This document shows, piece after piece, positions 37,742 to 52,500 of a DNA stretch of 64,000 nucleotides (the stretch's first letter is position 1; each line of letters starts with the position of its first letter). A program made the position numbers and the translations under genes. Source of the DNA: Streptomyces sp. WMMC500. Its GTDB lineage: Bacteria > Actinomycetota > Actinomycetes > Streptomycetales > Streptomycetaceae. The notes under the pieces were generated by a model. That model had not been told where the DNA came from. It saw only the letters and a program-made list of their open reading frames with translations, and did not search any database. The stretch covers positions 7,604,001-7,668,000 of the forward strand of contig NZ_CP114905.1 in the NCBI RefSeq assembly GCF_027497195.1, written 5' to 3'.

Positions 37742-39181
37742 ATGAGCGCTACCGCACAGATCGGTGTCACGGGGCTCGCGGTGATGGGCCGCAACCTGGC
37801 GCGCAACTTCGCCCGCAACGGCTACACCGTGGCGCTGCACAACCGCACCGCCTCGCGCACCCGTGACCTGGTGGCGGAGTTCGGCGGCGAGGGAGACTTC
37901 GTGCCCACCGAGAGCGCCGAGGACTTCGTGGCGGCGCTCGAACGCCCCCGGCGACTTGTGATCATGGTCAAGGCCGGCGAGCCGACGGACGCCGTGATCG
38001 AGGAGTTCGCGCCGCTGCTCGAACCCGGCGACATGATCATCGATGGCGGCAACGCGCACTTCGCCGACACCCGCCGGCGTGAGCAGGCCCTGCGCGAGCG
38101 GGACATCCACTTCGTCGGCACCGGCATCTCCGGAGGCGAGGAAGGCGCGCTGCACGGGCCGAGCATCATGCCCGGCGGCAGCGTCGCGTCGTACGCCTCG
38201 CTCGGCCCGATGCTGGAGAAGATCTCGGCGAAGGCGAAGGACGGCGCCCCGTGCGTGGCGCACGTCGGCCCGGACGGCGCCGGCCACTTCGTGAAGATGG
38301 TCCACAACGGCATCGAGTACTCCGACATGCAGTTGATCGGCGAGGCGTACCAACTGCTGCGGGACATCGGCGGGTACACCCCCGCCCAGATCGCCGAGAC
38401 CTTCCGCACCTGGAACACCGGCCGTCTCGACTCGTACCTGATCGAGATCACGGCGGAGGTCCTCGCCCACGTGGACGCGGACACCGGCAAGCCCTTCGTC
38501 GACGTCGTCGCCGACCAGGCCGAGCAGAAGGGCACCGGCCGCTGGACGGTGCAGACCGCCCTCGACCTGGGGGTGCCGGTCCCGGGCATCGCCGAGGCGG
38601 TCTTCGCCCGCTCCCTGTCCGGGCACACCGACCTGCGGGCTGCGTCCGCGCACTTGGCGGGCCCGAAGCCGCAGCCGCTGGCCGGGGGAGAGGCGGAGGC
38701 GTTCGCCGACCAGGTCGAGCAGGCGCTGTACGCCTCGAAGATCGTGTCGTACACGCAGGGCTTCCACGAGATCGCCGCGGGCAGCGCCGCGTACGACTGG
38801 AACATCGACCCGGGCGCGGTGGCCCGGCTCTGGCGCGGCGGCTGCATCATCCGCGCGGCGTTCCTCGACCGGATCAGCGCGGCGTACGGCGCCGAGCCGG
38901 CCCTGACCTCGCTCCTGGCGGACAAGGGCTTCGCCGACGAGATCGCCGCCGCGCAGCACGACTGGCGGGCCGTGCTGAACGCCGCGACCACGCAGGGCGT
39001 TCCGGCTCCGGGCTTCGCGGGGGCGCTGGCCTACTACGACGCGCTGCGTGCCGAGCGGCTGCCCGCGGCTCTCACCCAGGGCCAGCGCGACTACTTCGGC
39101 GCCCACACCTACCGGCGCGAGGACCGCGAAGGGACCTTCCACACCCTCTGGGGCGGCGACCGCGCCGAGGTGCCGGCCTAG
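37742..39181 (+). CDS. gnd: 6-phosphogluconate dehydrogenase, decarboxylating
   Basis: 479 residues, the full-length NADP-dependent form. The N-terminal Rossmann fold shows GLAVMGRNLARNFARNGY and the NADP-selecting HNRT. The substrate loop is VGTGISGGEEGALHGPSIMPGG, and the catalytic Lys-His region is HFVKMVHNGIEYSDMQLI. The C-terminal tail with LTQGQRDYFGAHTYRR closes the dimer partner's site. It converts 6-phosphogluconate to ribulose-5-phosphate in the pentose phosphate pathway, making NADPH. The ribosome-binding site AAGGAAGGA is eight bases before ATG. It stands alone, ended by a shared terminator. Confidence 0.95.
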   Translation: MSATAQIGVTGLAVMGRNLARNFARNGYTVALHNRTASRTRDLVAEFGGEGDFVPTESAEDFVAALERPRRLVIMVKAGEPTDAVIEEFAPLLEPGDMIIDGGNAHFADTRRREQALRERDIHFVGTGISGGEEGALHGPSIMPGGSVASYASLGPMLEKISAKAKDGAPCVAHVGPDGAGHFVKMVHNGIEYSDMQLIGEAYQLLRDIGGYTPAQIAETFRTWNTGRLDSYLIEITAEVLAHVDADTGKPFVDVVADQAEQKGTGRWTVQTALDLGVPVPGIAEAVFARSLSGHTDLRAASAHLAGPKPQPLAGGEAEAFADQVEQALYASKIVSYTQGFHEIAAGSAAYDWNIDPGAVARLWRGGCIIRAAFLDRISAAYGAEPALTSLLADKGFADEIAAAQHDWRAVLNAATTQGVPAPGFAGALAYYDALRAERLPAALTQGQRDYFGAHTYRREDREGTFHTLWGGDRAEVPA

Positions 39182-39190
39182 CAGTACGGA

Positions 39191-39224
39191 CGGTGAGCGG
39201 TGGGCGGCGGCGAGCCGCTCACCG
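39191..39224. terminator. Bidirectional terminator
   Basis: Perfect arms CGGTGAGCGG and CCGCTCACCG lie between convergent gnd and the DUF1257 gene. The right arm overlaps the DUF1257 stop codon. Confidence 0.6.
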
Positions 39225-39626
39225 CACCCGGCGCAGGACCATGCGTACGGTGCCGTCCCGTTCCGTGGTCTCCTCGGCGAGATGGAAGCCCTCTTCCGCC
39301 AGGCGGGCCGCGGTGACGTGGTAGGCGTGGCGTGCGGTGAGCCGGTCCAGCCAGGCCGCGTCGTGCCTGCGGCGGTCGTAGTCGCTGATCGCGGCGGTGA
39401 AGCGGCCGTCCTCCCCGTGGAGGAAGCCGATGTCGTTCGACAGCCGCCCGACGTGTCTGCGCCGCACGATCACGTGTGCCGTGTGCTCCCGCCGGTCACC
39501 GCGGTAGCCGTGCAGCGGCTGCGCGGTGTCGTGCACCTCGACCTCGCGGTACCCGACGTCCGCCAGGGCGGCGCACAGCGCGTCGGTGTCGGTCAACGCC
39601 GTGCTGAGCACGCTGAAATGGGACAT
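39219..39626 (-). CDS. DUF1257 (Ycf35-like) protein
   Basis: 135 residues, last gene of the chaperone/AAA cluster. It begins MSHFSVLSTALTDTDALCAAL, the typical start of DUF1257/Ycf35, followed by LHGYRGDRREHTAHVIVRR, a segment with DIGFL, and the C-terminal RLTARHAYHVTAARLAEEGF. Ycf35 is encoded in some plastid and in cyanobacterial genomes and has no firm function. It follows the Ycf46-like ATPase gene by 12 bases, so the two are very likely made together. Confidence 0.82.
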   Translation of the reverse strand: MSHFSVLSTALTDTDALCAALADVGYREVEVHDTAQPLHGYRGDRREHTAHVIVRRRHVGRLSNDIGFLHGEDGRFTAAISDYDRRRHDAAWLDRLTARHAYHVTAARLAEEGFHLAEETTERDGTVRMVLRRVR

Positions 39627-39638
39627 GCGACGACTCCG

Positions 39639-41189
39639 TCACGTCGGGAACTCATCGGGTTCGCGGGGCTCCAGCGGGTCGAGGGGCACGACGAACCGGC
39701 TCGCGGCCTCCCTCGTCTCGGCGAAGGACGCCGACTGCGCCCGGCCCTCCCGCAGCCAGGCGCGCAGCGCACCGATCGTCTCGCGCTGCGACACCGACAG
39801 CGGCACCTGCCGGGCGAGTGCGGTGAGAATGTCGTCGGTGGTGAACTCACGGCCCTCGTTGAACCCCACGTACATGGCGTCCACGACGGCCTGCTCGATC
39901 TCCGCGCCCACGTACCCCTCCGAGCTGCGGGCGAGCGCCGCGACGTCGAAGTCCGCCGGCAGCCTTCGGCGTTTACGCAGGTGCACCTCGGCGATTTCCG
40001 CACGTTCGTCGGCGATCGGCAGGTCGAGGAAGAAGATCTCGTCGAACCGGCCCTTCCGCAGGACTTCGGGCGGCAGGCTGGCCACGTCGTTGGCGGTGCC
40101 GACGACGAAGCACGGCGCCGTCTTCTCCTGCATCCAGGTCAGGATGGTGCCGAACACCCGCGTGCTGGTGCCGGAGTCGCCGCCGCCGTGCGCGAGCGCC
40201 TTCTCCATCTCGTCGATCCACACCACGCACGGCGCGACCGTCTCCGCGAGCCGCAACGCGCGGCGGGTGCGTTCCTCCGCCTCTCCGACCAGGGACCCGA
40301 AGAGCGCACCGACGTCCAGCCGCAGCAGCGGGAGCCGCCACAGCCCGCCGATCATCTTGGCGGTGAGGCTCTTCCCGGTCCCCGGAATCCCGATCAGCGC
40401 GATGCCCTTGGGCGCGGGCAGCCCGTAGTCGCGGGCCTCCTGGGTGAACGCCCGCTCCCGCAGCCGCAGCCACTTCTTGAGCACGTCGAGGCCGCCCACG
40501 TCGTCGGGGGTCTCGTGCACCGGATAGAACTCCAGCGCCTCGCTCTCCCTGATGACGTCCTTCTTCTCCTGCACCACCGCCTCGATGTGCCGGTCGTCGA
40601 GTGCGTTGTCCCGGACGATCGCCTTGGCGTAGGCGCGGCGTGCCTGCGCGGCGGTCATCCCGAGAGCCGCCTGCCCGAGCTTCTCCCGGCCGGCCGGGGT
40701 GAGGTCGACCTTCACGCCCGGTGTCGCCGTCAGCCCGCCCAGCACCTCGTCCAACTGCCCGCGATCCGGCAGCGGCAGTCCGATCACCACCGCCTCGTCC
40801 CGCAGTTCCTCGGGCACCGTGCGGTTCGGTGAGATGACGATGACCGACTTGCGGGTGAACTTCAGCCGCTGCACGGCGCTGCGCAGCTTGCGCTTCACCT
40901 GCGGGTTGCTCCAGCAGTCGTGGAAGTCCTTGAGGACGAAGACGGTGCCGTCCTCGGCCTTCTCCACCTGCTCGATCACCGAAACCGGGTCGCGCGCGGT
41001 GGGCAGCGCCCCGCCCTGGCCGTGCAGCGCCTCGAACCCGTCGGCGAGATCCCACGCGAGGCACCGGCGGCGTCCGCGCTCGCACACGGCGCGCACCGCC
41101 TCCAACGCCCGTTCCTCCTCCACCGTCACGGCCACGATCAGCGTGTACCGCGCGCGCAGGTAGAGGTCGAGATCGGTCCGAAATCCCAC
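39639..41189 (-). CDS. Ycf46-like AAA ATPase
   Basis: 516 residues. The N-terminal 190 residues form the Ycf46-specific domain (LIVAVTVEEERALEAVRAV, VFVLKDFHDCW, VIVISPNRTVPEEL). The AAA core follows, with Walker A GIPGTGKSLTAK near residue 278 and Walker B CVVWIDEMEK. The second region of homology has FVVGTANDVASLPPE, and the arginine fingers are probably in RKGRFDE. A helical lid region ends the protein. I chose GTG at 41189, with GGGGG six bases upstream. Ycf46 homologues are known from cyanobacteria and plastids; the client of the motor is unknown. It precedes DUF1257 in the operon. Confidence 0.87.
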   Translation of the reverse strand: MGFRTDLDLYLRARYTLIVAVTVEEERALEAVRAVCERGRRRCLAWDLADGFEALHGQGGALPTARDPVSVIEQVEKAEDGTVFVLKDFHDCWSNPQVKRKLRSAVQRLKFTRKSVIVISPNRTVPEELRDEAVVIGLPLPDRGQLDEVLGGLTATPGVKVDLTPAGREKLGQAALGMTAAQARRAYAKAIVRDNALDDRHIEAVVQEKKDVIRESEALEFYPVHETPDDVGGLDVLKKWLRLRERAFTQEARDYGLPAPKGIALIGIPGTGKSLTAKMIGGLWRLPLLRLDVGALFGSLVGEAEERTRRALRLAETVAPCVVWIDEMEKALAHGGGDSGTSTRVFGTILTWMQEKTAPCFVVGTANDVASLPPEVLRKGRFDEIFFLDLPIADERAEIAEVHLRKRRRLPADFDVAALARSSEGYVGAEIEQAVVDAMYVGFNEGREFTTDDILTALARQVPLSVSQRETIGALRAWLREGRAQSASFAETREAASRFVVPLDPLEPREPDEFPT

Positions 41190-41244
41190 CGGATACCCCC
41201 AGCCCCTTCGCTGACCAGCCTCACGACCGTAGCCGACCGGTCGG

Positions 41245-43176
41245 TCATCCGTCGCTCACCTCGATGTCGGCGGTGCCCGGAATCCGTCCGGGGCCGGCGA
41301 CTTCGATGTCATCGCGGTGGCCCCACCACGCCAAGGCGGAGATCGCGTCGGCCCACGCGCGGTGCGGCGTGCCCGGCGCCGCTTCCGGCAGGGCGTCGAG
41401 CCGCCCGGGATGCAACTCGTGGACCGGGAGCCGGCACAGCGCCGTCAGCTCCGGATCCCACAGGTGCCGCAGCCACAGGCCGCCGCGCCGGTCGCCGCTG
41501 ACCAGCGAACCGCCGTCCGGGGTGAACACCAACTCGGTGACGCGCCGGTCGTGTTCGGCGCGGACCCCGGCGGCCTCGCCGGAGGGCAGCCGCCACAGCC
41601 GCACCGTCCCGCCCGCGTCGCCGCTTGCCAGGACGTCCCCGTCCGCGGACACGGCCAGGGCCGTCACCCCCTTTGCGTGGCCGGTCAGCACCCCGGCGGG
41701 CTCGCCCGAGGGCATCCGCCACAGCCGGATCGTACGATCCGCTCCGGCGCTGGCGAGCAGGGTTCCGTCCGCCGTCACGGCCAGGTGCTGCACCCAGCCC
41801 GTGTGCCCGTTCAGCACGCCCGCGGCCCGCGGCGCCTCCGCCTGCCACAGCCGGATGTCACCGCTGTCCCCGCCGGTCGCGACCAGCGCGGTGCCCGGGA
41901 TCGCCACGACACGGTGCGGGGCGGTGCCGCTGCCGCTCATCGCCACCGTGTCGACGTCGGTGCCGGGCGGCAGGCGGGTGCGGCCTCCGACGAGGAAACG
42001 GCCGTCGGACGGGGACAGCATGGCGTGATAGACCGCCCTGTCGTCGGCCCTTTCGGTCTTCGGGCCCCAGGGGTCGCGCCACCGGGACGCGGTCCGGCCG
42101 TTGTCGATCAGCAGTTCCCCGTCCGGCGTCACCAGCAGCATGCCCGACCAGGATTCGTGCTGGGAGGTGCGTACGGTGCCGACCTGCTCGCCCGAGGGCA
42201 GCCGCCACAGCGCCGTCCTGCCGAGCTTGGCGGCGGCCAGCAGGTTCCCGTCCGGGAAGGCCGCCAGGTCGAACCAGCGCCCGTCGGCCAACTGGCGCAT
42301 CGGCTCGCCGGTGGGCAGGTGCCACAGGCGTACGCCGCCTCCGTTGCCCGCGGACGCGAGCACGGTGCCGTCCGGCGTGGTCACCAGGCGGTTGACCTTG
42401 CCGGTGTGGCCGGGCAGCGCCCGCGCGTCGTCGTCTCCCGCGGCGGGGTTTCCGGTGCACCGCCGCGCCAGCGCGGTCAGCTCGCGGTAGCGGGCCCGGT
42501 CGGGCCCGGCGTCCGGTCGCCAGTCGTATGCGTGCAGTTCGGACAGGATGCGTACGGACCAGAACGACGGGGCCCGCAGGGCGAGCTGCCAGAGCCGCGC
42601 CGGTCTGCCCGCCGCCAGGAGCATGCCGATAGCGGCGTCCCACTCCACCTCGGACAGCTTCGCGACCGCCTCGTCGCGGCCGGAGCCGACGGCCGCGCGG
42701 ACCCACTCGATACGTCCGGACTCGCGGGCCCGCTCGGCCAGCCGTGCGCGCAGGGGCTCGTCGGCGGCCGTACGTGCGGCGGCCAGGGCGCCGCCGTCGA
42801 AGTCCAGCGCGGCGTAGTCCTCGAACTGCCCGGTCAGGAACAGCAGCAGCGCCCGGCGGGCCGGATCGGAGTGCCGGTACCCGGCGGACGTGACCAGGTC
42901 GGCCAGCCGCGGGCTGTCGGTGCTGAACACCACCTCGCACAGCGCGTCGATCTCCGCCTGGCCGCCGAGCCGGGTCAGCCCGTCCTCGGCGATCGCCACG
43001 ACCGTACGGTCCGGGCTCCCGGCGTACGCGGCAGCCAGCGCCCGTACGGCGGCCGGCGTGCGCAGCGCCGCCAGCCGTTCCGCCGCGCGGCGCCGCCGCC
43101 GGCCGCCGAACAGCGGGCCGCGGCCGTCCACTTCGGCGGCCAGCCGGGCGGTCTCGTCGCCCTCGACGCCGCTCAC
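41245..43176 (-). CDS. WD40 repeat protein with helical N-terminal domain (paralogue 1)
   Basis: 643 residues. The first 260 or so are Ala/Arg/Leu-rich helices like HEAT repeats (AERLAALRTPAAVRALAAAY, YAALDFDGG, EVEWDAAIGMLLAAGRPARLWQLAL). From about 265 a beta-propeller of roughly seven blades follows, with units such as HTGKVNRLVTTPDGTVLASA and VRLWRLPSGEAAG. The C-terminal LWDPELTALCRLPVHEL is shared by other actinobacterial WD40 proteins. There is no signal peptide, so it is cytoplasmic. The start is GTG, 18 bases after the longer paralogue. It is probably a protein-interaction scaffold in the cluster. Confidence 0.82.
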   Translation of the reverse strand: MSGVEGDETARLAAEVDGRGPLFGGRRRRRAAERLAALRTPAAVRALAAAYAGSPDRTVVAIAEDGLTRLGGQAEIDALCEVVFSTDSPRLADLVTSAGYRHSDPARRALLLFLTGQFEDYAALDFDGGALAAARTAADEPLRARLAERARESGRIEWVRAAVGSGRDEAVAKLSEVEWDAAIGMLLAAGRPARLWQLALRAPSFWSVRILSELHAYDWRPDAGPDRARYRELTALARRCTGNPAAGDDDARALPGHTGKVNRLVTTPDGTVLASAGNGGGVRLWHLPTGEPMRQLADGRWFDLAAFPDGNLLAAAKLGRTALWRLPSGEQVGTVRTSQHESWSGMLLVTPDGELLIDNGRTASRWRDPWGPKTERADDRAVYHAMLSPSDGRFLVGGRTRLPPGTDVDTVAMSGSGTAPHRVVAIPGTALVATGGDSGDIRLWQAEAPRAAGVLNGHTGWVQHLAVTADGTLLASAGADRTIRLWRMPSGEPAGVLTGHAKGVTALAVSADGDVLASGDAGGTVRLWRLPSGEAAGVRAEHDRRVTELVFTPDGGSLVSGDRRGGLWLRHLWDPELTALCRLPVHELHPGRLDALPEAAPGTPHRAWADAISALAWWGHRDDIEVAGPGRIPGTADIEVSDG

Positions 43177-43194
43177 CGCCGCATCACTCCTGCC

Positions 43195-45384
43195 TCACTC
43201 CCGCAACTCGATGTCCGTCGCGGCGGCGGCCGAACCGTCGTCGATCTCCACGTCGTGCCGGTGCCGGCGCCAGGCCAGCCGTGCCAGGAGATCCACCCAG
43301 GGCTGCCCCGCGACGCCCGCGGACGCCCGTAGCCGCTCGACCTCGTCGGGGCGGAGCCGGCCCGCCGGGGCACGCGCCTGCGACAGGACCGCGGGCTGCC
43401 ACAGCCGGAGCGAACCCGCGCCGCTCGCGGCCACCGCGTATCCGCCGGGAGCCACCGCCAGCGCGGTGATCTCGGCCCCGAGTCCCTCCGGGGCGACGGC
43501 GGGTTCGCCCGAGGGCAGCCGCCATGTCCACAGCCGGCCGTTGCGGCTGCCGGCGACCAGGAAGCGGCTGTCCGCCGTGACCGTGAGGCGGCCCACCTCG
43601 TCCCTGTTCCCCAAGTCCCAGGAGACCGGGCGCTCGTGGACGGGGAGCACTCCCGCCGGCTCACCGGACGGCAACCGCCACAGGCGCACCGTCCCCTCGC
43701 GGCCCGCACTGGCCAGCAGGCTGCCGTCCGGGGTGATCGTCAGGTGCGTGACGTTGCCGGCATGTCCGGTCAGTGTGCCGGCGGACTCGCCGGAGGGCAG
43801 GCGCCACAGCGCGATGTCGCCGCGCTGCGCGGGGGGTGGTGGCTGCCGCCCCGGTGTGCCCGCCAGCAGGGCGCCGTCCGGTGCGAGCGCCAGCGGGCCG
43901 TTGCCGTTGATCCGCTCCAGCAGGAGGGCGGACGGCAGCTCCCACACCCTGATTCCCCATCGGTCCAGCCCGGCCGCGCGTTCCCGGCCCGGGGTGGCGA
44001 CGACGCCGGAGACGGAGCCGTAGAAGTCTTCGACGGTATGGACCGGGCGCAGCCCCGGCGACTCCCACACCTTCGGCTTGCCGTCGTAGCCCAGGGAGAA
44101 CAGCGTCCTGCCGTCCGGTGCCGGCAGGAGGTTCGCCCGCGATTCCCACGCCCGCGCCAGCTCCGCGCCGTCCCGTAGCCGCCAGGAGGTCATCACGGCC
44201 GAACCCGCCGCGACCAGTGTGCCGTCGTCGATGACGATCGAGGTGACGGTGCCGGGGCTCACTTCGATACGCCGGAGCCGTCGCACCCGGGGCAGCGTCC
44301 ACACCGTGATCACGCCGTTGTCGTCGCCGGCGGCGAGCGCCTCGCCGTCGGCGGAGACGGCGAGGGCGCGTATCGCGCGGGCTCCTTCGGGATCGAGCAG
44401 CAGCCGGTCCACCGGATGCAGCTCGCACCGGTCGGCGAGCCCGACGAGCGCCTCGTACTCGGCCCGCTCCACCGTCTGCCGCGGGCGCCAGCCGGATGCG
44501 CCGAGGTCACACAGGAGCCGTACCGCCCAGAACGGGGGAGCGGCCAGAGCCAGTTGCCACAGCTCCGCCCACCGCCGGGCGCGCCCGAGCATCGCGCGCG
44601 AGGTGTCCCACTCGTCGTCGGACAGCTCCGCGAGCCGCTCGTCGGAGCGGTCGAGCGTCACCGCGCGCACCCAGTGCAGCCGGCCGGTCCGCCGGGCCAT
44701 CGCGGCCAGCCGGGCGCGCAGGGCCGGCTCCGCCGCCTCGTGCGCGGCGCGCAGCAGGCGCCCGTCGAAGTCCAACCGCCGGTAGGCGTCTTGTTGTTCG
44801 GTGAGGAAGAGGAGCACGGCGCGGCGACCCGGATCCTTCGGTGCGAACCCGCCGGCGACCGCCGCCCTGAGCGCGGCCTCGCTTCCGCTGTCGATGGCAG
44901 CCGCACACACGTGCTCGCGGGCCTCCTGGGCGTCCAGCCCGGCGAGCGCCGTGGCGGCCCGGGCGCGTAGCTCCGGGTCGCGGTCGCCGTCGGCGATGCC
45001 GACCATCGACCGTACGGTCAGCTCGTCGCTGCCGAGAACGTCCGGGCGGCCGGCCCGCAGCGCGGTCCGCACCCGCACGTACGGAGGATGCGAGGCGATC
45101 CAGCCGTGCTGCCCGACCAGCCGGTCGAGTTCATCGCTGCGCCGATAGCTCCAGACATGGCACACCACGTCGATCGCGCGCTGGTCGTCCAGCCGCGCCA
45201 GCGCCCGCCTCGCGACCTCGTGCGCGCCGCGGTCGTGCCCCCTGGCCAGCTCCTCGGCCAGGGCGCGTACGGCGTCCGGCGTGCCCGCCCTGGCCAGTCG
45301 TCTCGCCGCCCGTTGCGGCGGGATCCACACCGACCCACCGGATTCGAGGAGGCGGGCGAGCCGGTCCACCTGCTCGTCGCGCAT
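43195..45384 (-). CDS. WD40 repeat protein with helical N-terminal domain (paralogue 2)
   Basis: 729 residues, same architecture as the next gene. A HEAT-like helical half covers about 1-325 (RRLARAGTPDAVRALAEELARGH, YRRLDFDGRLLRAAHEAAE, DDEWDTSRAMLGRARRWAELWQLAL) and a WD40 propeller about 335-700, with ALAVSADGEALAAGDDNGVI and VTHLTITPDGSLLASAGREG. Shared DFDG and W-x-L-W-Q-L-A-L segments show the two arose by duplication. Its ATG is six bases after the radical-SAM stop. No enzymatic motif is seen, so a scaffold role is inferred. Confidence 0.82.
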   Translation of the reverse strand: MRDEQVDRLARLLESGGSVWIPPQRAARRLARAGTPDAVRALAEELARGHDRGAHEVARRALARLDDQRAIDVVCHVWSYRRSDELDRLVGQHGWIASHPPYVRVRTALRAGRPDVLGSDELTVRSMVGIADGDRDPELRARAATALAGLDAQEAREHVCAAAIDSGSEAALRAAVAGGFAPKDPGRRAVLLFLTEQQDAYRRLDFDGRLLRAAHEAAEPALRARLAAMARRTGRLHWVRAVTLDRSDERLAELSDDEWDTSRAMLGRARRWAELWQLALAAPPFWAVRLLCDLGASGWRPRQTVERAEYEALVGLADRCELHPVDRLLLDPEGARAIRALAVSADGEALAAGDDNGVITVWTLPRVRRLRRIEVSPGTVTSIVIDDGTLVAAGSAVMTSWRLRDGAELARAWESRANLLPAPDGRTLFSLGYDGKPKVWESPGLRPVHTVEDFYGSVSGVVATPGRERAAGLDRWGIRVWELPSALLLERINGNGPLALAPDGALLAGTPGRQPPPPAQRGDIALWRLPSGESAGTLTGHAGNVTHLTITPDGSLLASAGREGTVRLWRLPSGEPAGVLPVHERPVSWDLGNRDEVGRLTVTADSRFLVAGSRNGRLWTWRLPSGEPAVAPEGLGAEITALAVAPGGYAVAASGAGSLRLWQPAVLSQARAPAGRLRPDEVERLRASAGVAGQPWVDLLARLAWRRHRHDVEIDDGSAAAATDIELRE

Positions 45385-45390
45385 CGTGGC

Positions 45391-45960
45391 TCACCACCCC
45401 GTGGGCGGGTCGATGCCGGTCAGGGTCACCCTGCCGTCGGGGTGCACGATGACCTCGGCTTCGGGCACGGCGTCGAGATCGGCGCGGGTGTAGCGGTCCG
45501 AGAAGAACCGGACAGTCTTGTCGGCCGATCCCCGCAGCCCGCGGGCGATCCGCAGGTCCTGCCGGTACCGGCCTGCCAGCAGCACGTCGACGCAGCGGCG
45601 CAGCTCGTCGAGCTCGCGCATCCGCAGCACCTCGGGCCAGTCGTAGCCGGTGAGCAGAATCGTCGACAGGCGCGTCCCGGCCCGTATCCGCCGCAGCAGT
45701 TCCAGCACGGCGCCGCGCTGCTGCAACGGCTCGCCGCCGGTGATCGTGACGCCCTCGATCCGGTCCGCGAGCGCGGCCACGCGGCGGTACAGCTCGGCCA
45801 CCTCGACCTCCTCGCCCGCCCGGGCATGTGTGCCGGGGTTGAAACACCCCGGGCAGCCGAGCGTGCAGCCCTGTACCCAGATGACGGCCCGGGTGCCCGG
45901 TCCGTTGGCGACGCTGAACGGTTCGAAGCCGTGCGTCCGCAGCCGCCCGGGCACGGTCAC
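45391..45960 (-). CDS. Radical-SAM 4Fe-4S activase-like protein (NrdG-type)
   Basis: 189 residues. The cluster motif is CTLGCPGC (C-x3-C-x2-C), with the SAM-binding GGEPLQQ and strand TILLTGYDWPEV. Length and layout match glycyl-radical activases of the NrdG type, but no anaerobic ribonucleotide reductase or other glycyl-radical enzyme is encoded in the window. Its GTG start overlaps the DUF2997 stop (GTGA), so it is co-translated with that small protein. The target is unknown; the context suggests a protein partner within this operon. Confidence 0.82.
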   Translation of the reverse strand: MTVPGRLRTHGFEPFSVANGPGTRAVIWVQGCTLGCPGCFNPGTHARAGEEVEVAELYRRVAALADRIEGVTITGGEPLQQRGAVLELLRRIRAGTRLSTILLTGYDWPEVLRMRELDELRRCVDVLLAGRYRQDLRIARGLRGSADKTVRFFSDRYTRADLDAVPEAEVIVHPDGRVTLTGIDPPTGW

Positions 45961-46169
45961 GCCTGCGGCCCGCGGCGGAGGTGGTCCGGCACCTGCTCGT
46001 CGACCACCGCGTAGGCGTCCGCCGTGAGTTCGCGGCTGACGACCTCGCCGCCGAGCGCCTTCTCCAGGGCGGCCGTCAGGTCGAGGCAGCCGCGGCCGGG
46101 GACGCCGTGCACCTCGATCCGGGTCGTGCCGTCCGGCGCGATCGTCACCTCGATCTCCTGGAACTCCAC
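45957..46169 (-). CDS. DUF2997 protein
   Basis: 70 residues, mostly beta-strand then helix. The sequence EVTIAPDGTTRIEVHGVPGRGCLDLTAALEKALGG fits DUF2997, which has a conserved Gly-x-x-C followed by a helix. In other bacteria this small family is found near DUF1257, as here. The single Cys could be a reactive or modified site, for example for the adjacent radical-SAM enzyme (speculation). GTG start with GAGGAGAG seven bases before; 22 bases after the Hsp70-like gene. Confidence 0.72.
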   Translation of the reverse strand: MEFQEIEVTIAPDGTTRIEVHGVPGRGCLDLTAALEKALGGEVVSRELTADAYAVVDEQVPDHLRRGPQA

Positions 46170-46191
46170 GGTGCTCTCCTCACCCCGCAGG

Positions 46192-47805
46192 TCAGGTCAG
46201 CTTCACCACCGGGAAGTCCCGGTGCGTCTGCCGCCCGCTGACCAGATCGTAAGCCGTCAGCAACAGCCGTTTGTTGCCGTCGATGCCGAACTCGACCCGG
46301 AACCGGGCCTGCCCCGCCGTCGCGGCGGGGTCGGCGCGCAGGAACGTCGGGCTGTGCTCGTTCAGCCAGAACCGGTGGCGCTCCTCCTCCGCCGGCACCG
46401 CGCGCACCCGCCACGCTCCGGACGGGTCGCACACCAGCTCGGTGTTCCCCTCGCCGGCGCGGTGCCGGCTCAGCTCGTAGATCGCGATGCCCAGCTCGGT
46501 CTGGCCGTCGTGGGTGGCGTTCACGGTCATGGTGTGCACCGGCTCGGTGCTCGGATAGGCGGTACCCGCGGTGACGCAGGTGCGGTACTCGTAGCGCCCG
46601 GCCCGCCGGTCGAACCAGCGCACCGCGTAGTCGTGCTGGACGTGGTCGTAGAAGTCGGTGCCGGCGGCGAACGCCGCCGCCCCGCGCGCGACCGCGTCCA
46701 GCGGGCGCTCGGAGAGCACCCGGTCACGCCCGAAGATCCGCTCCAGCGTGCGGCGGACCGAGGGGATCAGGCTGCTGCCCCCGACCATCAGCACGGCCGC
46801 CAGATCGTCCTCGTCGTAGCCCCGGGTCGACGCGTCCCGTACGGCCCGGCGGACCACGCGGTCGATCCGGGAGAACAGCTCCCGGCGGTCCAGCAGTTCC
46901 TCGAACGACACGAGCCGCCGATCGCCACGCGCGGCGCCCTCCCGGACCAGTTCGAGGCCGAGCACCGCGCCGGTGTCCGGGTCCAGCACGCTGATCTCGG
47001 CGTGCTCCCGCGCGGACAGCGCCTCCTTCGCGCGCTCGCACTCCACCAGCAGCGCGCGGCTGACGCGCCGTACCTCCTCGTCGCTGTCGTGGCGATCGTT
47101 GCGCGCCAGCAGCTCCTCGAAGATCCACTGATCGACGGTGGCGCCGCCCAGCTCGTCACCGGCCTTGCCGAGCACCCGGCAGGTACGCCCGGTCGCCGCG
47201 CGCTCCTCCTCGTCCTGCACGCGCACCACGGCGGCCTGCACGGTTCCGCCGCCGAAGTCGAACATCAGGTAGACGTGCCCCGGCCGGATGTGCGCGCCGT
47301 AGCCCAGTGCCGCCGCGGACGGCTCGTCGATCAGCCGGTACCGGCTCAGCCCCGCGGCCTCGGCGACCTCGCCGAGCCAGTTCTCGTAGTGCTCGAACGA
47401 CTCCACCGGCGCCGTCAGCGCGACCTCCTCGCCCTCGGCTCCCGCCTCGACGGCGGCGAACGCCAGAACAGCGGACAGGAAGTCGCGGCCGGCTTCGGAG
47501 GGGGAGACGCGCCGCCCGTTCGCCGCCATCGTCAGAGGACTCCGGTTGCCGACATAGCGCTTCATCCACCGGAAGGTGCCGGCGGCGTGGTAGAGGTTCC
47601 GGGCCAGCACCTGCTCGCCGAGGAGCCGGCGCCGGTCCCCGGTGTAGTGGATGAGGGAGGGCACCACGGGCACCCGGTCACCACCCTGTCCGAACGATCG
47701 CCCGTAGTCGGGCAATCGCAGGGCCGATCCCTCACCGGCCTCGTCGTCCCACAGGGCGACCACGGTGTTGCTGGTGCCGAAGTCGACACCCAGGCGACCC
47801 GCCAT
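46192..47805 (-). CDS. Hsp70 (DnaK-like) chaperone, divergent
   Basis: 537 residues, shorter than DnaK (about 620). The ATPase domain shows phosphate 1 GVDFGTSNTVVALW, connect 1 DEPSAAALGYG, phosphate 2 FDFGGGTVQAAVV and the adenosine motif LMVGGSSLIPSVRRTL. The substrate part (about 400-537) is a short beta domain with no long C-terminal helical lid and no EEVD-like tail. DnaK has a longer lid, so this is a specialised Hsp70. Its ATG overlaps the GrpE-like stop by one base. No J-protein gene is seen in the window. Confidence 0.88.
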   Translation of the reverse strand: MAGRLGVDFGTSNTVVALWDDEAGEGSALRLPDYGRSFGQGGDRVPVVPSLIHYTGDRRRLLGEQVLARNLYHAAGTFRWMKRYVGNRSPLTMAANGRRVSPSEAGRDFLSAVLAFAAVEAGAEGEEVALTAPVESFEHYENWLGEVAEAAGLSRYRLIDEPSAAALGYGAHIRPGHVYLMFDFGGGTVQAAVVRVQDEEERAATGRTCRVLGKAGDELGGATVDQWIFEELLARNDRHDSDEEVRRVSRALLVECERAKEALSAREHAEISVLDPDTGAVLGLELVREGAARGDRRLVSFEELLDRRELFSRIDRVVRRAVRDASTRGYDEDDLAAVLMVGGSSLIPSVRRTLERIFGRDRVLSERPLDAVARGAAAFAAGTDFYDHVQHDYAVRWFDRRAGRYEYRTCVTAGTAYPSTEPVHTMTVNATHDGQTELGIAIYELSRHRAGEGNTELVCDPSGAWRVRAVPAEEERHRFWLNEHSPTFLRADPAATAGQARFRVEFGIDGNKRLLLTAYDLVSGRQTHRDFPVVKLT

Positions 47806-48344
47806 CAGGACTCCGGGTCAGCGGCGACCGGTTCGACCCCGGCCCGGCGCAGCACACGGCCCCGGTAGCACAGGCCGACCACCCGGATCCGCACCCGCGT
47901 CCCCGCTTCCGGTGCGCTGCTCATGCTCAGGGGGTCGTGCCGATCCGGATCGAACGCGGCTTCCTCGCCGAGCGCGCCGAGGGTGTCCACACCGGCCGCG
48001 CCCAACGACCGCACCAACCGCGCACCGACGGCAATCACGTCGTCCGCCCGCACCTGCACGGTGCCGCCGTGGTGGAGCTGAGCCTGCGTCGCCAACTGCA
48101 CCAGCGAGGCACCCATGGACTCCACGAGCTGCTCGACCTGGGCCTGCCCCTGCCGCTCGGCCTCGTCCTCGGACGAGGTCCGGGCCCGTTCCAGGTCGGC
48201 GCGCAGTCGCCGCACCGAATCGTCGCGCTCCGTCAACGTCAGCCGGCACTCCTGGAGCTGCCGCTCCAACTCCAGCTCCCGCCCGGCCCCGCGCCCCCTG
48301 GCCCTCCACCGTCGGCGGAACTCTCCCCACATCCCACCGAACAT
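47805..48344 (-). CDS. GrpE-like nucleotide exchange factor
   Basis: 179 residues from ATG 48344. The N-terminal half is a charged coiled coil (ELERQLQECRLTLTERDDSV). The C-terminal head has GVDTLGALGEEAAFDPDRHDPL and RIRVVGLCYRGRVLRRAGVEPV, which match the head of GrpE (GE-x-FDPxxHE and GRVLRPAxV). It would exchange ADP on the Hsp70 encoded next, whose ATG shares one base with its stop (TGATG). The ATG at 48332 is an alternative start; neither has a strong ribosome-binding site. First gene of the cluster. Confidence 0.78.
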   Translation of the reverse strand: MFGGMWGEFRRRWRARGRGAGRELELERQLQECRLTLTERDDSVRRLRADLERARTSSEDEAERQGQAQVEQLVESMGASLVQLATQAQLHHGGTVQVRADDVIAVGARLVRSLGAAGVDTLGALGEEAAFDPDRHDPLSMSSAPEAGTRVRIRVVGLCYRGRVLRRAGVEPVAADPES

Positions 48345-48663
48345 ACAGAACGCGACGGGGCGGGAACCAGGGAACGGCGCCCGGCCGGCCCCGGGGCAGT
48401 CCACGGTCCCATGAGGAGGCCGGGACGGGGGGCGGATCCGCCGCCTCGGCGATCCGGGCCGCGGCGTGCGGGGTGATCGGGATACGCGGGCTCTTCTTGC
48501 CGGAGGTCTCGGCTGGGAGCCGACCGCACCCTCCGGCGAACCACCGCACGGGACAGGGCTTCCGGGGCGGACCCGGGCGGATCGCGGATCCGCCCGGGGT
48601 AGCCGAAGGCCCTGTCTTCTCTTGTTTCTGCGTCGCCTTGTGCTGTGCCGGGCGTGGGATGGG
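48345..48663. other. Spacer upstream of the chaperone cluster
   Basis: No convincing gene. It should contain the cluster promoter and it holds the terminator of the haloperoxidase gene at 48572-48598. A minus-strand open frame (48405-48549) gives no recognised domain. Confidence 0.4.
48572..48598 (-). terminator. Terminator of the haloperoxidase-like gene A
   Basis: Perfect 12-base arms CCCGGGCGGATC and GATCCGCCCGGG with loop GCG, about 65 bases past the stop. Confidence 0.7.
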
Positions 48664-50280
48664 TCAGTTCTTGATGTCGCCCTTGACGTGCTTGTCGACG
48701 AATTCGTGGGCCATGTCGCCGAACTGTTCGCCGAAGGTGATGGTGCGGTCGACGGTCTTCATGAAGTGGACGCCGCCCCAGACGCGGCTGGTGCCGCAGG
48801 CGCGGGTGAAGTCGGTCCAGGTGGGGAAGTGGAGCTGGAGGTCGGCGGCGGGGGTGATGCCGGGCTCGACCATGGTGGAGCCGGCTTTGTAGTCGATGGT
48901 CCAGTCGAGTTCGTCGGAGCCGAAGTAGCGGCGGGCGGCCTGGGAGGTGGCCGAGCACAGGCTGGTGGAGCCTGAGGGGTATTCGGGGTGGTCGCCGACG
49001 GGCAGGTAGCTGGACCACTCGGAGGCTCGGATGTCGTCGACGGTGCCCATGCCGATGCCGCCCCAGGCGGTGACCTTCTTCTTGCCGTAGACGTGCTGGA
49101 CGACGGTGACGGGGCGGGCGGCGTCGAACTTGGTCTTCTGGTGCCAGGCGGCGATCAGCGGCTCGAACGTGGCCAGGACGTGGGAGAGCATCCAGTGGAC
49201 CCAGCCGTGCATGCCCATCTCGTTGTTCTCATCGTGCTTCTTGGCGATGACGATCGATGAATGCCCGATGCCCCACAGCTTGTTCTCCATGATCTCGGTG
49301 ACGACCTTGCGTTCGTCGGTGAGAGCGGCCGAGGTCTCCAGGATTTCGTCCGCGGAGCGCCTGAAGGCGCGGCGGTCGGTGTGGTCGATGTGGTCGGGGC
49401 GGGGCAGGCGGAACTGGGCGGGGTCTTTGAAGATGTGCGGCTTGGTGCGGGCGGCCTGGGGGGTGACGAAGTGCTGGGTGACGTAGATGCCGAGGTCGCC
49501 GGGGCCGCCGCCGGCGCGGCGGCCGTTGTGGCGCTGGAGTTGGGGCTGCCAGCGTGAGGGGTTGTTGACGTCGAAGGCGGTGTTGACCGGCTGGTAGCCG
49601 GTGTAGTCGGCCCAGGGTGTGGGGTTGTAGGTGCGGCCGCCTTCGTAGCCCAGGACGTTCATGCCGTCGTTCTTCAGCGCGTTCCACGCGTTCTTCGCGG
49701 CGACGTTCCCGATGCCGATGGGGCTGGTGAGGTTCTCCGACTCGTCCATGGGGTCCAGCCCGAGGCCGGTCATGAGTTCGCGGAGGCGGCCGACCTGCTG
49801 GGGGAGGATCTGTGTCCAGACGCCGTGCTGGGCGTAGAGGGCGGCGATGTTCATGTTGCGGTTGGTGGCCGATTCGCCGGCGGGGCGGCGGGGGATGCGG
49901 GAGTACACGCCGACGGCGGTCTCGTGGTAGGGGGCCAGGGCGTCGAAGGCGGCGAACCAGACGACGCGGTTGATCCACAGGAAGACGGTGACGTCCATGG
50001 GGCCGAGGATGGCCAGGGTGGGGGACTGGCCGGCGTTCTCGTCGGTGGGCTGGGCCCACTTGATGTAGTTGTCCTTGTCCAGGTCGAACTCGATCTGCGC
50101 CGACTGGGCCGCCCCACCCGCCGAGGTGCCGGCGGACGGGCTGGCCGGCTTGGGGGTGGCGTTGGCGGTGCCGGTGAGGCCCTGCGTGGTCAGGACGGCG
50201 GCGCCGGTGACGCCGCCGAGGAGCAGGGACCTGCGCCGCGGGGAGGAACCTGTGTCAGAAGTGTGTCCGGACGTCGTCAT
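48664..50280 (-). CDS. Vanadium-dependent haloperoxidase-like protein A, Tat-exported
   Basis: 538 residues with a twin-arginine signal (PRRRSLLLGGVTG) and Thr/Ala/Pro linker. The vanadate/PAP2-type active site is seen as K-x-x-x-x-x-RP (KFDAARP), PSGSTSL and SRVWGGVHF near the C-terminus. The second motif is PSGS, where textbook vanadium haloperoxidases have PSGH with an acid-base His. Such enzymes oxidise halide with peroxide to halogenate organics; the His change makes activity uncertain. The ATG at 50280 has AAAGGA upstream. It is divergent from the flavin halogenase gene. Confidence 0.83.
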   Translation of the reverse strand: MTTSGHTSDTGSSPRRRSLLLGGVTGAAVLTTQGLTGTANATPKPASPSAGTSAGGAAQSAQIEFDLDKDNYIKWAQPTDENAGQSPTLAILGPMDVTVFLWINRVVWFAAFDALAPYHETAVGVYSRIPRRPAGESATNRNMNIAALYAQHGVWTQILPQQVGRLRELMTGLGLDPMDESENLTSPIGIGNVAAKNAWNALKNDGMNVLGYEGGRTYNPTPWADYTGYQPVNTAFDVNNPSRWQPQLQRHNGRRAGGGPGDLGIYVTQHFVTPQAARTKPHIFKDPAQFRLPRPDHIDHTDRRAFRRSADEILETSAALTDERKVVTEIMENKLWGIGHSSIVIAKKHDENNEMGMHGWVHWMLSHVLATFEPLIAAWHQKTKFDAARPVTVVQHVYGKKKVTAWGGIGMGTVDDIRASEWSSYLPVGDHPEYPSGSTSLCSATSQAARRYFGSDELDWTIDYKAGSTMVEPGITPAADLQLHFPTWTDFTRACGTSRVWGGVHFMKTVDRTITFGEQFGDMAHEFVDKHVKGDIKN

Positions 50281-50928
50281 GTGTTGTGTTCCTTTCCAAG
50301 AAGAGAGGGGGGCTCCACGGTCCACGGCGACGCCCTTAGGGGGCAGGTGCTGCCCCGGGGCTTGTCGCACACACCGACTGTTCCGGCGCTTTCATAAAAT
50401 GAAGAGGGGGCGGGTGCACCCGCTGTTCCTGTTCTTCTCGGGTATTTTCGGTAACGTCTTCAAATCCCTCGGACAGTATTTTCATTCCGCGCCGAAGGTC
50501 AGGAAATCATGCGCGGCACCCTGTGCGCTGCGGGGTACCTTACTGGGCTTTGCTAGAGGTCTGCTAGAGCGCAACTAAGAGTTGCGGCAACCAGCCCGAC
50601 ACGCCCGACACCCCCCACCGAAATTCATGACACGACGAGATATGTACGGAGTAGGCAAGGGACGGGGGGGTAAAGGCCATGCGCTCCCGGGCGCCGGCGG
50701 TGCGCGACTTCGGGGCGCCCGACGGGCGGTGCGATGCCCCCGCGGTGGCGAAGATCCCGTGTGGGTCGGTCCCGGTGGAGTCTGCACTGAGCAATCTGGG
50801 CGATGACAGGGTCTGTTGTGTGGGGTCAGTGTGGTGGTGAAGCGTGTTTTGGGTGCGTGGAGGGGGTCTTCACGCGAATCGCTGGTGCGGTCGTATCGGA
50901 ACTGGGCATCGGAACGGGAAGGTCCTCT
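50281..50928. other. Divergent regulatory spacer of the halogenation locus
   Basis: 648 bases without a convincing gene, with lower GC near 50390-50480 than surrounding coding DNA. It must hold the promoters of both the haloperoxidase A and halogenase genes. Open frames before the halogenase ATG have no domain and an SD-supported start at 50929 exists. Confidence 0.5.
50551..50586. promoter_or_regulatory. 11-bp direct repeat plus 17-bp inverted repeat
   Basis: TGCTAGAG occurs at 50551-50558 and 50562-50569, an 11-bp spacing. It is followed by CGCAACT-AAG-AGTTGCG (50570-50586), a perfect inverted repeat with 7-base arms. The cluster lies in the divergent promoter region and looks like a regulator site. 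Confidence 0.45.
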
Positions 50929-52206
50929 ATGTCGTCCACTGTTGTCGGGTTTTCTGGCGATTTCGACGTTATCGTCATCGGCGGCGGGCCCGCCGGTGCG
51001 ACCACATCCGCACTCCTGGCCAAGCGCGGACGCCGGGTCCTGGTCCTGGACCGCGAGCGGTTCCCCCGCTACCACGTCGGGGAATCCCTCATCCCCGGCG
51101 TGATGGTCCCCATGGAAGAACTCGGCCTCAAAGAACGCATGGAAGCCAAAGGCTTCGAGCGCAAGTACGGCGGCACCCTGGTCTGGGGCAACAACGAAGT
51201 CCCCTGGAACTTCTCCTTCACCACCGGCGGCCGCATCCCCTACGCCTTCCACACCCGCCGCGCCGACCTCGACGCGCTGCTGCTGGACCGGGCCCGGGAG
51301 CTGGGCGCCTTCGTCGTCGAAGACGCCACCGTCAAGGACACCCTCGAAGAAGACGGCCGCGTCGTCGGCGTCCGCTACGCCCTGCGCGGCCTGAGCGGCA
51401 CCCAGGAAGCCCGCGCCTCCCTGGTCATCGACGCCTCCGGCCAGGCCCGCGTCATCGGCCGCAAGTACACCGAGGTCAACTGGAACGAACAACTGCGCAA
51501 CGTCGCGGTATGGACCTACTTCGACAACTGCCACCGCCTGCCGGGCGACGAGTGGAGCAACATCCTCATCGAAGGCACCCGCGACGGCTGGTTCTGGGGC
51601 ATCCCCATCGACAAGGGCGTCTTCAGCGTCGGCTACGTCACCCGCTCCGCCCTGGCCAACGAGTCCGACAAGTCACTGGAAGACCTCTTCGAGTCCGAGA
51701 TCGCCAGCACCACCAAGCTGAAGGAACTCCTCAAGGACTCCACCCAGGCCGCCGGCTACCGCACCGCACGCGACTGGTCCTACACCAACGAACGCTTCCA
51801 CGGCCAGGGCTGGGCCCTGGTCGGGGACGCCGCCGCGTTCGTCGACCCGCTGTTCTCCACCGGCGTCGCGCTGGCCACCCTGGCCGGCAGCACCCTGTCC
51901 AAGGTCGTCGACCAGATCCTGGAACACCCCCACATCGAGGAGAAGGCCCTCGACCGCTACTCCACCGCCTACCAGGAGTTCTTCCACGACATCCGCAAGT
52001 TCGTCGAAGGCTTCTACGACCGCTCCAAGACCAAGGGCTTCTACTTCAACATGGCCCAGGAGATGGTCGACCCCGAACGCGAAAACGAAGCCGAAGTCGA
52101 CTTCGTCAAACTCATCTCCGGCCTCAGCGGCCGCCAAGGCGGCCTCTTCGAACTCAACGTCGACGACCTCATCGAAGACACCACCCCCACCCCCACCAGC
52201 ACCTGA
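50929..52206 (+). CDS. FADH2-dependent halogenase (phenolic/carrier-protein type)
   Basis: 425 residues. It has the FAD motif VIVIGGGPAGATTSALLAKRG, the RYHVGESLIPG segment and the halogenase-specific W-x-W-x-I-P motif (WFWGIP). The second flavin contact is WALVGDAAAFVDPLFSTGVALA. It resembles the CmlS/CndH/PltA group rather than tryptophan halogenases. It would chlorinate or brominate an electron-rich substrate using reduced FAD from a separate reductase, none here. The ATG at 50929 has GGGAAGG six bases before. A very strong terminator follows, so it is a single-gene transcript. Confidence 0.87.
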   Translation: MSSTVVGFSGDFDVIVIGGGPAGATTSALLAKRGRRVLVLDRERFPRYHVGESLIPGVMVPMEELGLKERMEAKGFERKYGGTLVWGNNEVPWNFSFTTGGRIPYAFHTRRADLDALLLDRARELGAFVVEDATVKDTLEEDGRVVGVRYALRGLSGTQEARASLVIDASGQARVIGRKYTEVNWNEQLRNVAVWTYFDNCHRLPGDEWSNILIEGTRDGWFWGIPIDKGVFSVGYVTRSALANESDKSLEDLFESEIASTTKLKELLKDSTQAAGYRTARDWSYTNERFHGQGWALVGDAAAFVDPLFSTGVALATLAGSTLSKVVDQILEHPHIEEKALDRYSTAYQEFFHDIRKFVEGFYDRSKTKGFYFNMAQEMVDPERENEAEVDFVKLISGLSGRQGGLFELNVDDLIEDTTPTPTST

Positions 52207-52221
52207 CACCACACCCCGCAC

Positions 52222-52272
52222 GAAGCTCCCGGCGGCGGAGGATCCAGTTGATCCTCCGCCGCCGGGAGCTTC
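52222..52272 (+). terminator. Strong terminator of the halogenase gene
   Basis: Perfect 23-base arms with loop CAGTT, starting 15 bases after the stop. The long GC stem should end transcription efficiently. Confidence 0.85.
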
Positions 52273-52500
52273 TGCCGTTCATGCCCTGCAGTGCGCCGGC
52301 GCGGGGGCGCCCGACCTACCACAAGTCACCGCAGGGCCCCTATTCCCGACGCCGTACCTGCCCTGACATTTGCTTGCCGGTTACGATGAGCGGAGTAGGC
52401 GGGTAAGGTCCCACTCTATTCATCGCCCCGTGAATTTTTCGGCGCCGCACGCCCGAAATGTCAAGAATCCCTTCCATAGTTTCTTTCGAGTGGCTCTTGA

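Follow-up and report, generated by a model that had tools for sequence, protein, structure and literature searches.

An eight-gene AAA-Hsp70 operon of Streptomyces with DUF1257, DUF2997, radical-SAM and HEAT-WD40 proteins: a tentative case for a stress- or redox-linked remodelling machine

Described relatives and the Streptomyces locus

DUF1257 (Ycf35), DUF2997 and the Ycf46-type AAA ATPases are long-standing unknowns of cyanobacteria and plastids, and the sections of the cited papers drawn on here place their closest described relatives in Synechocystis. There, DUF2997, ycf35 and fed7 are clustered, cells with a fed7 null mutation are sensitive to oxidative stress, metals, salt and iron limitation, and two-hybrid testing showed a DnaJ-like protein to be a binding partner of Fed7 (PMC4284462); ycf35, ssl1263 and fed7 depend on SigD (PMC8875361), and the slr0374 (Ycf46) operon has been called stress-responsive, with Jiang et al. 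2015 cited for a role in carbon fixation (PMC7496141). Elsewhere, ycf35 and ycf46 are missing from two freshwater red algal plastids, a pattern correlated with habitat over a set of 127 (PMC5940233), and the DUF1257 and DUF2997 domains appear in light ecotype and soil expression studies (PMC13131479, PMC12016546). A similar logic with other components is found in the nucleoside triphosphate (NTP)-dependent conflict systems of Kaur et al. 2020 (PMC7159879). This study concerns a single operon of Streptomyces sp. WMMC500 in which relatives of all three families are encoded together with a private Hsp70 and GrpE, a radical S-adenosylmethionine (rSAM) protein and two HEAT-WD40 proteins, providing a shared and testable biochemical frame outside photosynthesis in a genetically tractable Streptomyces.

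The operon lies in a window of 64,000 nucleotides (contig NZ_CP114905.1), corresponding to 7.604-7.668 Mb of an 8.61 Mb chromosome in a genome of 99.97% completeness. Eight genes on the minus strand, spanning 48344 to 39219, follow the order GrpE, Hsp70, DUF2997, rSAM, two WD40 proteins, AAA and DUF1257, with junctions of -1, 22, -4, 6, 18, 55 and 12 bases. This arrangement, proposed in the original prediction, was borne out by the open reading frames (ORFs), the Pfam matches and the measured gaps. A codon-statistics gene caller picked the same eight genes, an agreement that is not independent because its training set consisted of seven of them and two neighbours. The features are as follows (aa, amino acids).

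47805..48344, minus strand: GrpE-like nucleotide exchange factor, 179 aa (PF01025 29.3 bits, cut-off 25.8)
46192..47805, minus strand: private Hsp70, 537 aa (PF00012 113.4 bits vs cut-off 20.6, residues 6-380)
45957..46169, minus strand: DUF2997 protein, 70 aa, with GxxGxxC and a variable hydrophilic tail (PF11211 67.2 bits vs 24.1)
46086..46088, minus strand: Cys28 codon of DUF2997, conserved in the alignment
45391..45960, minus strand: rSAM protein, NrdG/Fer4_12 type, 189 aa (PF13353 98.6 bits; PF04055 41.3 bits vs 29.5)
45844..45867, minus strand: CxxxCxxC cluster motif (C32, C36, C39) of rSAM, from the sequence
43195..45384, minus strand: HEAT-WD40 protein 1, 729 aa, proposed client receptor (WD40 Pfam 75.7 bits; HEAT-type N-domain family)
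44440..45300, minus strand: HEAT-like N-terminal domain of protein 1 (profile match, ORF residues 31-317)
43396..44379, minus strand: WD40 propeller region of protein 1 (5 repeats by custom profile)
41245..43176, minus strand: HEAT-WD40 protein 2, 643 aa, proposed client receptor (WD40 Pfam 110 bits; same HEAT-type family)
42469..43077, minus strand: HEAT-like N-terminal domain of protein 2, best-scoring part (profile match)
41473..42411, minus strand: WD40 propeller region of protein 2 (6 repeats by custom profile)
39639..41189, minus strand: AAA ATPase, 516 aa, Ycf46-like superfamily, own clade (PF00004 93.8 bits; PF17862, AAA_lid_3, 30.7 bits)
39219..39626, minus strand: DUF1257 (Ycf35 family) protein, 135 aa (PF06868 55.2 bits vs 22.2)
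48345..48608, minus strand: operon upstream region, presumed promoter, bounded by a repeated halogenation segment starting at 48609

Recurrence of the gene set and turnover of its HEAT-WD40 proteins

With the AAA as query, 312 confirmed relatives were retrieved from the GTDB collection, and the best 80 loci, chosen by AAA similarity and in many cases ended by contig ends, were analysed with family profiles iterated from the window proteins; the Hsp70 profile may also pick up ordinary DnaK. Loci and genomes are labelled L and G below. Across the 80 AAA-anchored loci, the AAA occurs in 80, HEAT-WD40 in 67, DUF1257 in 49, DUF2997 in 47, rSAM in 45, Hsp70 in 44 and GrpE in 19, and 323 of the 324 non-AAA core matches lie on the strand of the AAA. 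Within the 37 loci that have full flanks (at least 21 kb), at least five of the seven families are present in 25 and all seven in 7. The eight genes are a recurrent set and not a chance row; co-occurrence of the families in other genomes had been set beforehand as one check on the original prediction, and it was confirmed by these counts. The proposed private Hsp70 was supported, with GrpE accompanying it in some of the loci.

At least five families occur in 42 of the 80 loci, from Actinomycetota, Chloroflexota, Cyanobacteriota, Verrucomicrobiota, Planctomycetota, the archaeon Methanoregula and a metagenome-assembled genome (MAG) titled Thermaerobacter, with most of the non-actinobacterial records among them being MAGs. 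The genes seem to be passed between genomes together. Within the genus, 10 of 392 genomes carry DUF1257 (the window's own counted); Hsp70 lies in the gene row of DUF1257 in 8 of these 10 and directly before it in 6, and of the two remaining carriers one holds an AAA remnant alone and the other nothing else on a 13.9-kb contig. The genus survey and the AAA-anchored survey are not independent, because at least 4 of the 10 carriers apparently overlap with the 80 loci. Across the phylum, DUF2997 was found in 2 of 149 genomes, again counting the window's own. Around the nearest Gnd relative, all six relatives with full flanks (6 of 6) lack the system and have other genes, and the DUF1257 carriers include none of them.

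A search of 12 whole genomes found DUF1257 in 9, with the copy lying inside the AAA locus in 2 of those (L046, L063); the other 7 are among 10 genomes with an AAA locus lacking DUF1257, and in these 7 DUF1257 lies elsewhere, with DUF2997 and rSAM adjoining at least one copy, sometimes also with Hsp70, GrpE or HEAT-WD40. Some of these splits may be assembly breaks: the AAA loci of L044, L051, L065 and L077 reach the edge of their contig on at least one side, which leaves L042, L053 and L079 as the clearest true splits. Of the 43 loci in which both DUF2997 and rSAM are present, 41 have DUF2997 directly before rSAM. Combined, the split loci and this adjacency suggest that DUF1257-DUF2997-rSAM tends to stay together and that the AAA can stand apart.

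The two WD40 proteins had been described as WD40 paralogues, and an N-terminal HEAT domain had gone unnoticed. Their N-terminal ~290 residues form one profile family; PF13646 (HEAT_2) was matched in the homologue from L048 at 29.2 bits vs 27.7 and weakly in a second homologue. Most of these proteins end in a WD40 propeller or a degenerate form of it. Eight homologues were checked against Pfam, one of which (L099) gave no match at all. Up to 5 copies are present per locus, and in one Chloroheliaceae MAG protein (L072, 927 aa) DUF1257 is fused to HEAT-WD40.

Conservation is distributed unevenly over the operon. The nearest operons (L037-L040, L114) share with the window an identity of 83-85% for the AAA, 72-78% for Hsp70, 65-72% for rSAM, 67-72% for DUF2997, 64-70% for DUF1257, 48-53% for GrpE and just 33-48% for HEAT-WD40. 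Among seven Streptomyces carrying a second type of AAA, AAA pairs are 92-99% identical and best HEAT-WD40 matches range over 24-90%, with 3 to 5 copies; these are best matches of stop-to-stop ORFs, some of which were ended by locus ends. Protein 1 orthologues are found in closer relatives, with N-domain identities of 78% in S. synnematoformans (the AAA of which is 95% identical to the window AAA) and 74% in MAR4 CNX-425. Therefore, the variation reflects fast change and turnover rather than absence. The pairing of a well-kept motor with fast-changing propeller proteins suggests a programmable client-recognition principle. At the level of sequence, the components, their motifs, their co-inheritance and the turnover of the putative receptors can be regarded as established.

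For the AAA protein, the complete Pfam list consists of AAA, AAA_lid_3 and AAA_22 only, and its closest named relatives are from Streptomyces. Among 81 AAA ORFs, the motifs that we take to be Walker A, Walker B, the GRF of the arginine-finger region and a pore loop are present in 80, 79, 81 and at least 75, respectively, the last being pore-loop-like. An AAA match at E 1e-40 or better was found in 63 of 98 cyanobacterial genomes; in 4 of the 98 (G537, which was the search centre, G618, G624 and G564) the AAA is 64-71% identical to that of the window, and the other listed matches have 33-51% identity, mostly near 45%, save one 57% piece of 136 residues. In a 117-row tree, the system AAAs form an 86-row group (Shimodaira-Hasegawa-like approximate likelihood ratio test, SH-aLRT, 100) that leaves out all 16 ordinary cyanobacterial copies sampled, every viral or phage row and two of the four rows from plasmids; the tree was built by a quick method with a midpoint root. 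Plain identity with the ordinary cyanobacterial Ycf46 is not supported, given this tree position and the identities mostly near 45%, so that of the Ycf46-like assignment in the original prediction the superfamily placement is retained and the identity with cyanobacterial Ycf46 is dropped. The Actinomycetota AAAs occupy two places in the tree, the window type and the second type at 60-64% identity, and Actinomadura chibensis carries both (L114, L110). These placements are compatible with separate acquisitions, and transfer is not proven by them.

The Hsp70 consists of a nucleotide-binding domain and a C-terminal stretch read as the beta part of the substrate-binding domain (SBD-beta); it was aligned to DnaK 2v7y, with the second piece not significant. 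The C-terminal stretch is too short for a lid, and the protein is probably lidless. It falls far under the model for housekeeping DnaK (TIGR02350 100 bits vs cut-off 822.6) and under that for the Fe-S chaperone HscA (TIGR01991 109 bits vs cut-off 708.6); another Hsp70 lies at 4.26 Mb of the same genome (734 bits to PF00012). In the Flexilinea-type loci L085, L087, L088 and L089, a DnaJ-domain ORF lies near the AAA (PF00226 77.6 bits in L085, the other three by clustering), as does a divergent Hsp70 with 23-24% identity to that of the window; no GrpE match was found in these loci.

A candidate remodelling machine and its rivals

The preferred reading, held tentatively and at somewhat less than even odds, is that the operon encodes an AAA-Hsp70 remodelling machine that is linked to stress or redox state and uses exchangeable HEAT-propeller proteins as client receptors. 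The eight proteins would form one ATP-driven protein-remodelling machine powered by the CDC48-like AAA with intact nucleotide motifs, and an AAA motor acting on propeller-held clients is plausible. We infer that the HEAT-WD40 proteins would hold client proteins as exchangeable receptors, that DUF1257 would couple receptor to motor, and that the rSAM protein and the DUF2997 cysteine would provide a redox or radical step switching or marking the machine, with stress as the trigger. Hsp70 and GrpE would deliver or refold clients. Most likely, the machine would serve under oxidative, metal or similar stress, where it would repair specific clients, release them or clear them away. The reading is in line with the conserved gene set and strand, the cohesion of DUF2997 with rSAM and of both with split-off DUF1257 copies, the fusion of DUF1257 to HEAT-WD40 in L072, the position of DUF1257 next to some ordinary cyanobacterial Ycf46 copies (L126, L130, L131, L163), the kept AAA motifs and the receptor turnover. 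A stress role is favoured by the published data on cyanobacterial relatives of the parts, as far as the cited sections go (PMC4284462, PMC7496141, PMC8875361).

A number of observations weigh against this assignment. The window AAA falls apart from the sampled cyanobacterial Ycf46-type copies, and the stress data from cyanobacteria therefore transfer weakly; DUF1257 is not within ~1.5 kb in 15 of the 16 ordinary cyanobacterial copies sampled. The cyanobacterial cluster, as published in the sections cited, has the ferredoxin Fed7 where the operon has rSAM, and the two are equivalent only by inference. GrpE was not found in 61 of the 80 loci, many of them ended by contig ends, DUF1257 is absent from 3 of the 12 genomes searched whole (L062, L081, L097), and 5 of the 37 full-flank loci (L042, L053, L054, L079, L081) hold one or two families, namely the AAA alone or the AAA with HEAT-WD40. 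No HAIR or CIRCE heat-shock site was found in the window. Additionally, the diversification of the receptors also fits a conflict role.

A wider reading, which is on the unlikely side, is that of a mobile modular surveillance machine: HEAT-propeller receptors would recognise damaged or foreign proteins and pass them via DUF1257 to an AAA-Hsp70 engine, with a radical-dependent or Fe-S-dependent change of the DUF2997 cysteine acting as its switch, with the cyanobacterial and plastid ycf46/ycf35 and the sets on viral contigs and plasmids as stripped-down relatives. Several mobile sets were found. A Pseudanabaena galeata plasmid carries GrpE, Hsp70, DUF1257, DUF2997, AAA and WD40 proteins with RelE, PIN, MazF and HsdR genes nearby, and holds a two-gene insert, the first product of which has an AbiEii-type ATPase domain. 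A Geminocystis plasmid carries a reduced set (DUF1257, DUF2997, AAA) beside RloB, zeta toxin and DndB, and a conjugative Rhodococcus plasmid (L170:4252-7989) the minimal set AAA, hypothetical, DUF2997, helix-hairpin-helix (HhH) and 4Fe-4S/rSAM. Among 11 viral-contig loci with a related AAA, DUF1257 or DUF2997 occurs in 8, rSAM in 2 (near-identical) and Hsp70 in none; related AAAs occur in 54 phage records, all at less than 60% identity.

Two further plasmid observations were made. On two cyanobacterial plasmids (L166:10149-11719 and L167:6168-8095), AbiEii-type ATPase gene pairs, one with RloB, directly adjoin DUF1257 or DUF2997. A Treponema succinifaciens plasmid (L169:5333-9557) carries a row of a 4Fe-4S protein, a related AAA (42%) and an annotated phage baseplate assembly protein V gene, which is possibly a contractile-injection setting for the AAA family.

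The main rival to the stress- or redox-linked remodelling machine, likewise rated unlikely, is a conflict or phage-defence system in which the HEAT-WD40 proteins would sense invaders and the AAA/Hsp70 core would set the threshold for a response or carry it out, much as in the NTP-dependent conflict systems of Kaur et al. 2020. It is consistent with a patchy and apparently mobile set (10 of 392 genus genomes, the Pseudanabaena plasmid copy among RelE, MazF and HsdR genes, and the reduced Geminocystis plasmid set near RloB, zeta toxin and DndB), with a conserved motor accompanied by fast-changing paralogous propellers, with DUF1257 or DUF2997 sharing a stretch with the related AAA in 8 of the 11 viral-contig loci, and with a match of the AAA to the PADLOC IetA model at 69 bits. 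Yet the eight proteins together do not correspond to any system named in PADLOC, the other PADLOC matches being to a HEAT/ARM model (33 and 40 bits, within the WD40 parts) and a further two below 18 bits, and nuclease, TIR and pore domains are not among the Pfam matches listed (best 25 for each WD40 protein). The AAA identity of 58-77% to the window outside the two actinobacterial types, across the 80 loci, was also judged high for a conflict component. Among 87 of the 180 called flanking proteins, from 28 loci, the families listed are those of ordinary metabolism with scattered kinase- and helicase-type PADLOC matches (best 25 of 127 PADLOC and best 25 of 133 Pfam families), and no clear defence setting is seen; these proteins constitute uncontrolled evidence against routine residence in defence islands, and the two cyanobacterial plasmids point the other way.

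More doubtful still is a radical-SAM modification system, in which DUF2997 would be modified by rSAM on or close to the conserved cysteine, while maturation, presentation or recycling of DUF2997 would fall to the chaperones and AAA. The adjacency of the two genes in 41 of 43 loci, with a 4-base overlap in the window, agrees with such a system, as do the motifs: across the 80 loci and the window, CxxxCxxC is present in 45 of 46 rSAM ORFs and GGEP in 46 of 46, GxxGxxC is present in 48 of 48 DUF2997 copies, and C28 is at least 90% conserved in a 47-row alignment (A3) with viral copies counted. A glycyl-radical partner for the rSAM is also not evident. The protein was rejected as an NrdG activase (TIGR02491 98.5 bits vs cut-off 126.1) and as a pyruvate formate-lyase (PFL) activase (TIGR02493 60.5 bits vs cut-off 231.75); NrdD (PF13597) had 0 matches in the genome, and its one PFL-like enzyme has as neighbour a PFL activase by model (TIGR02493 295.5 bits vs 231.75). 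NrdD and PFL, the two glycyl-radical families searched, thus do not explain the rSAM, because the former is absent and the latter has its own activase, and the earlier label of Fe-S activase, in the NrdG sense, was not supported. Against a modification system, the partner of DUF2997 and Ycf35 in the cyanobacterial cluster is a ferredoxin and not rSAM in the sections cited (PMC4284462), SPASM, peptidase and transporter domains are not among the Pfam matches listed for the eight proteins, and the conserved part of DUF2997 resembles a small folded domain, predicted at low confidence as beta-beta-alpha (predicted local distance difference test, pLDDT, 67). The predicted structure of DUF1257 is confident (pLDDT 92.8). 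On viral contigs L027 and L028, the AAA is flanked by two DUF2997 genes, the second copy being without the conserved cysteine.

Least probable of all is a factory dedicated to assembling a single protein complex or Fe-S enzyme, of which the HEAT-WD40 proteins would be structural parts, for which the Fe-S gene inside the operon, the size of the HEAT-WD40 proteins (the largest products) and HscA-type models as the best, far under cut-off, NCBIfam matches of Hsp70 would speak, but clustering of same-strand neighbours gave no constant client enzyme near the set (lineage-specific families only, including the DnaJ-type ORF in 4 Flexilinea-type loci), and the HEAT-WD40 copy number and sequence are highly variable for fixed parts.

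Sigma-70-like, HAIR and CIRCE sites were not found in the upstream region 48345..48608, nor was a promoter-like site across 39000-48700. Just upstream of the operon lie two halogenation segments, 48609-50645 (vanadium-chloroperoxidase-type) and 50769-52301 (tryptophan-halogenase-type), both with copies of 97-99% identity elsewhere on the chromosome, near 59-64 kb (L204), which places the repeat edge ~260 bases from the operon start. Besides its 100% copy, the chloroperoxidase gene (48664-50280) has six further diverged near full-length copies in the genome (71-78%), including one in the window (54.5-56.2 kb) and one at 53.8-55.2 kb in chromosome coordinates.

Comparison with known systems

The ClpB-DnaK-GrpE system is an AAA-Hsp70 bi-chaperone, and the operon resembles it in encoding an AAA motor with Hsp70 and GrpE; it differs in that the AAA is CDC48-like (PF00004, AAA_lid_3) and is accompanied by DUF1257, DUF2997, rSAM and HEAT-WD40. 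The anti-phage IetA/IteA ATPase, which has a protease partner, belongs to the same AAA superfamily (69 bits PADLOC, 64.5 bits NCBIfam), whereas no peptidase is among the Pfam matches listed for the operon. As an IteA/IetA defence ATPase, the AAA was rejected (NF042959 64.5 bits vs cut-off 510).

The Synechocystis cluster, from the sections cited, is like the operon in having DUF1257 and DUF2997 side by side with an Fe-S protein, a related AAA and a chaperone link between Fed7 and DnaJ (PMC4284462, PMC7496141), and is unlike it in having a ferredoxin for rSAM, separate loci and no private Hsp70/GrpE or HEAT-WD40. The MoxR-vWA ternary and GAP1-N2 systems of Kaur et al. 2020 share with the operon a chaperone-like NTPase core and variable repeat or propeller parts, and some GAP1-N2 loci hold Hsp70 and GrpE and some rSAM; Ycf46 does not occur in their main text (PMC7159879). 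For a MoxR-vWA ternary system, the required MoxR-type ATPase is missing from the complete Pfam list of the AAA. Neither vWA nor GTPase is among the Pfam matches listed for the eight proteins (for the WD40 proteins, best 25 of 31 and best 25 of 38). A description of the gene set was not found in the open-licence PMC literature, subscription papers being outside the search. Most of the proteins fall into named families, but the defining set is shared by none of the named systems tested.

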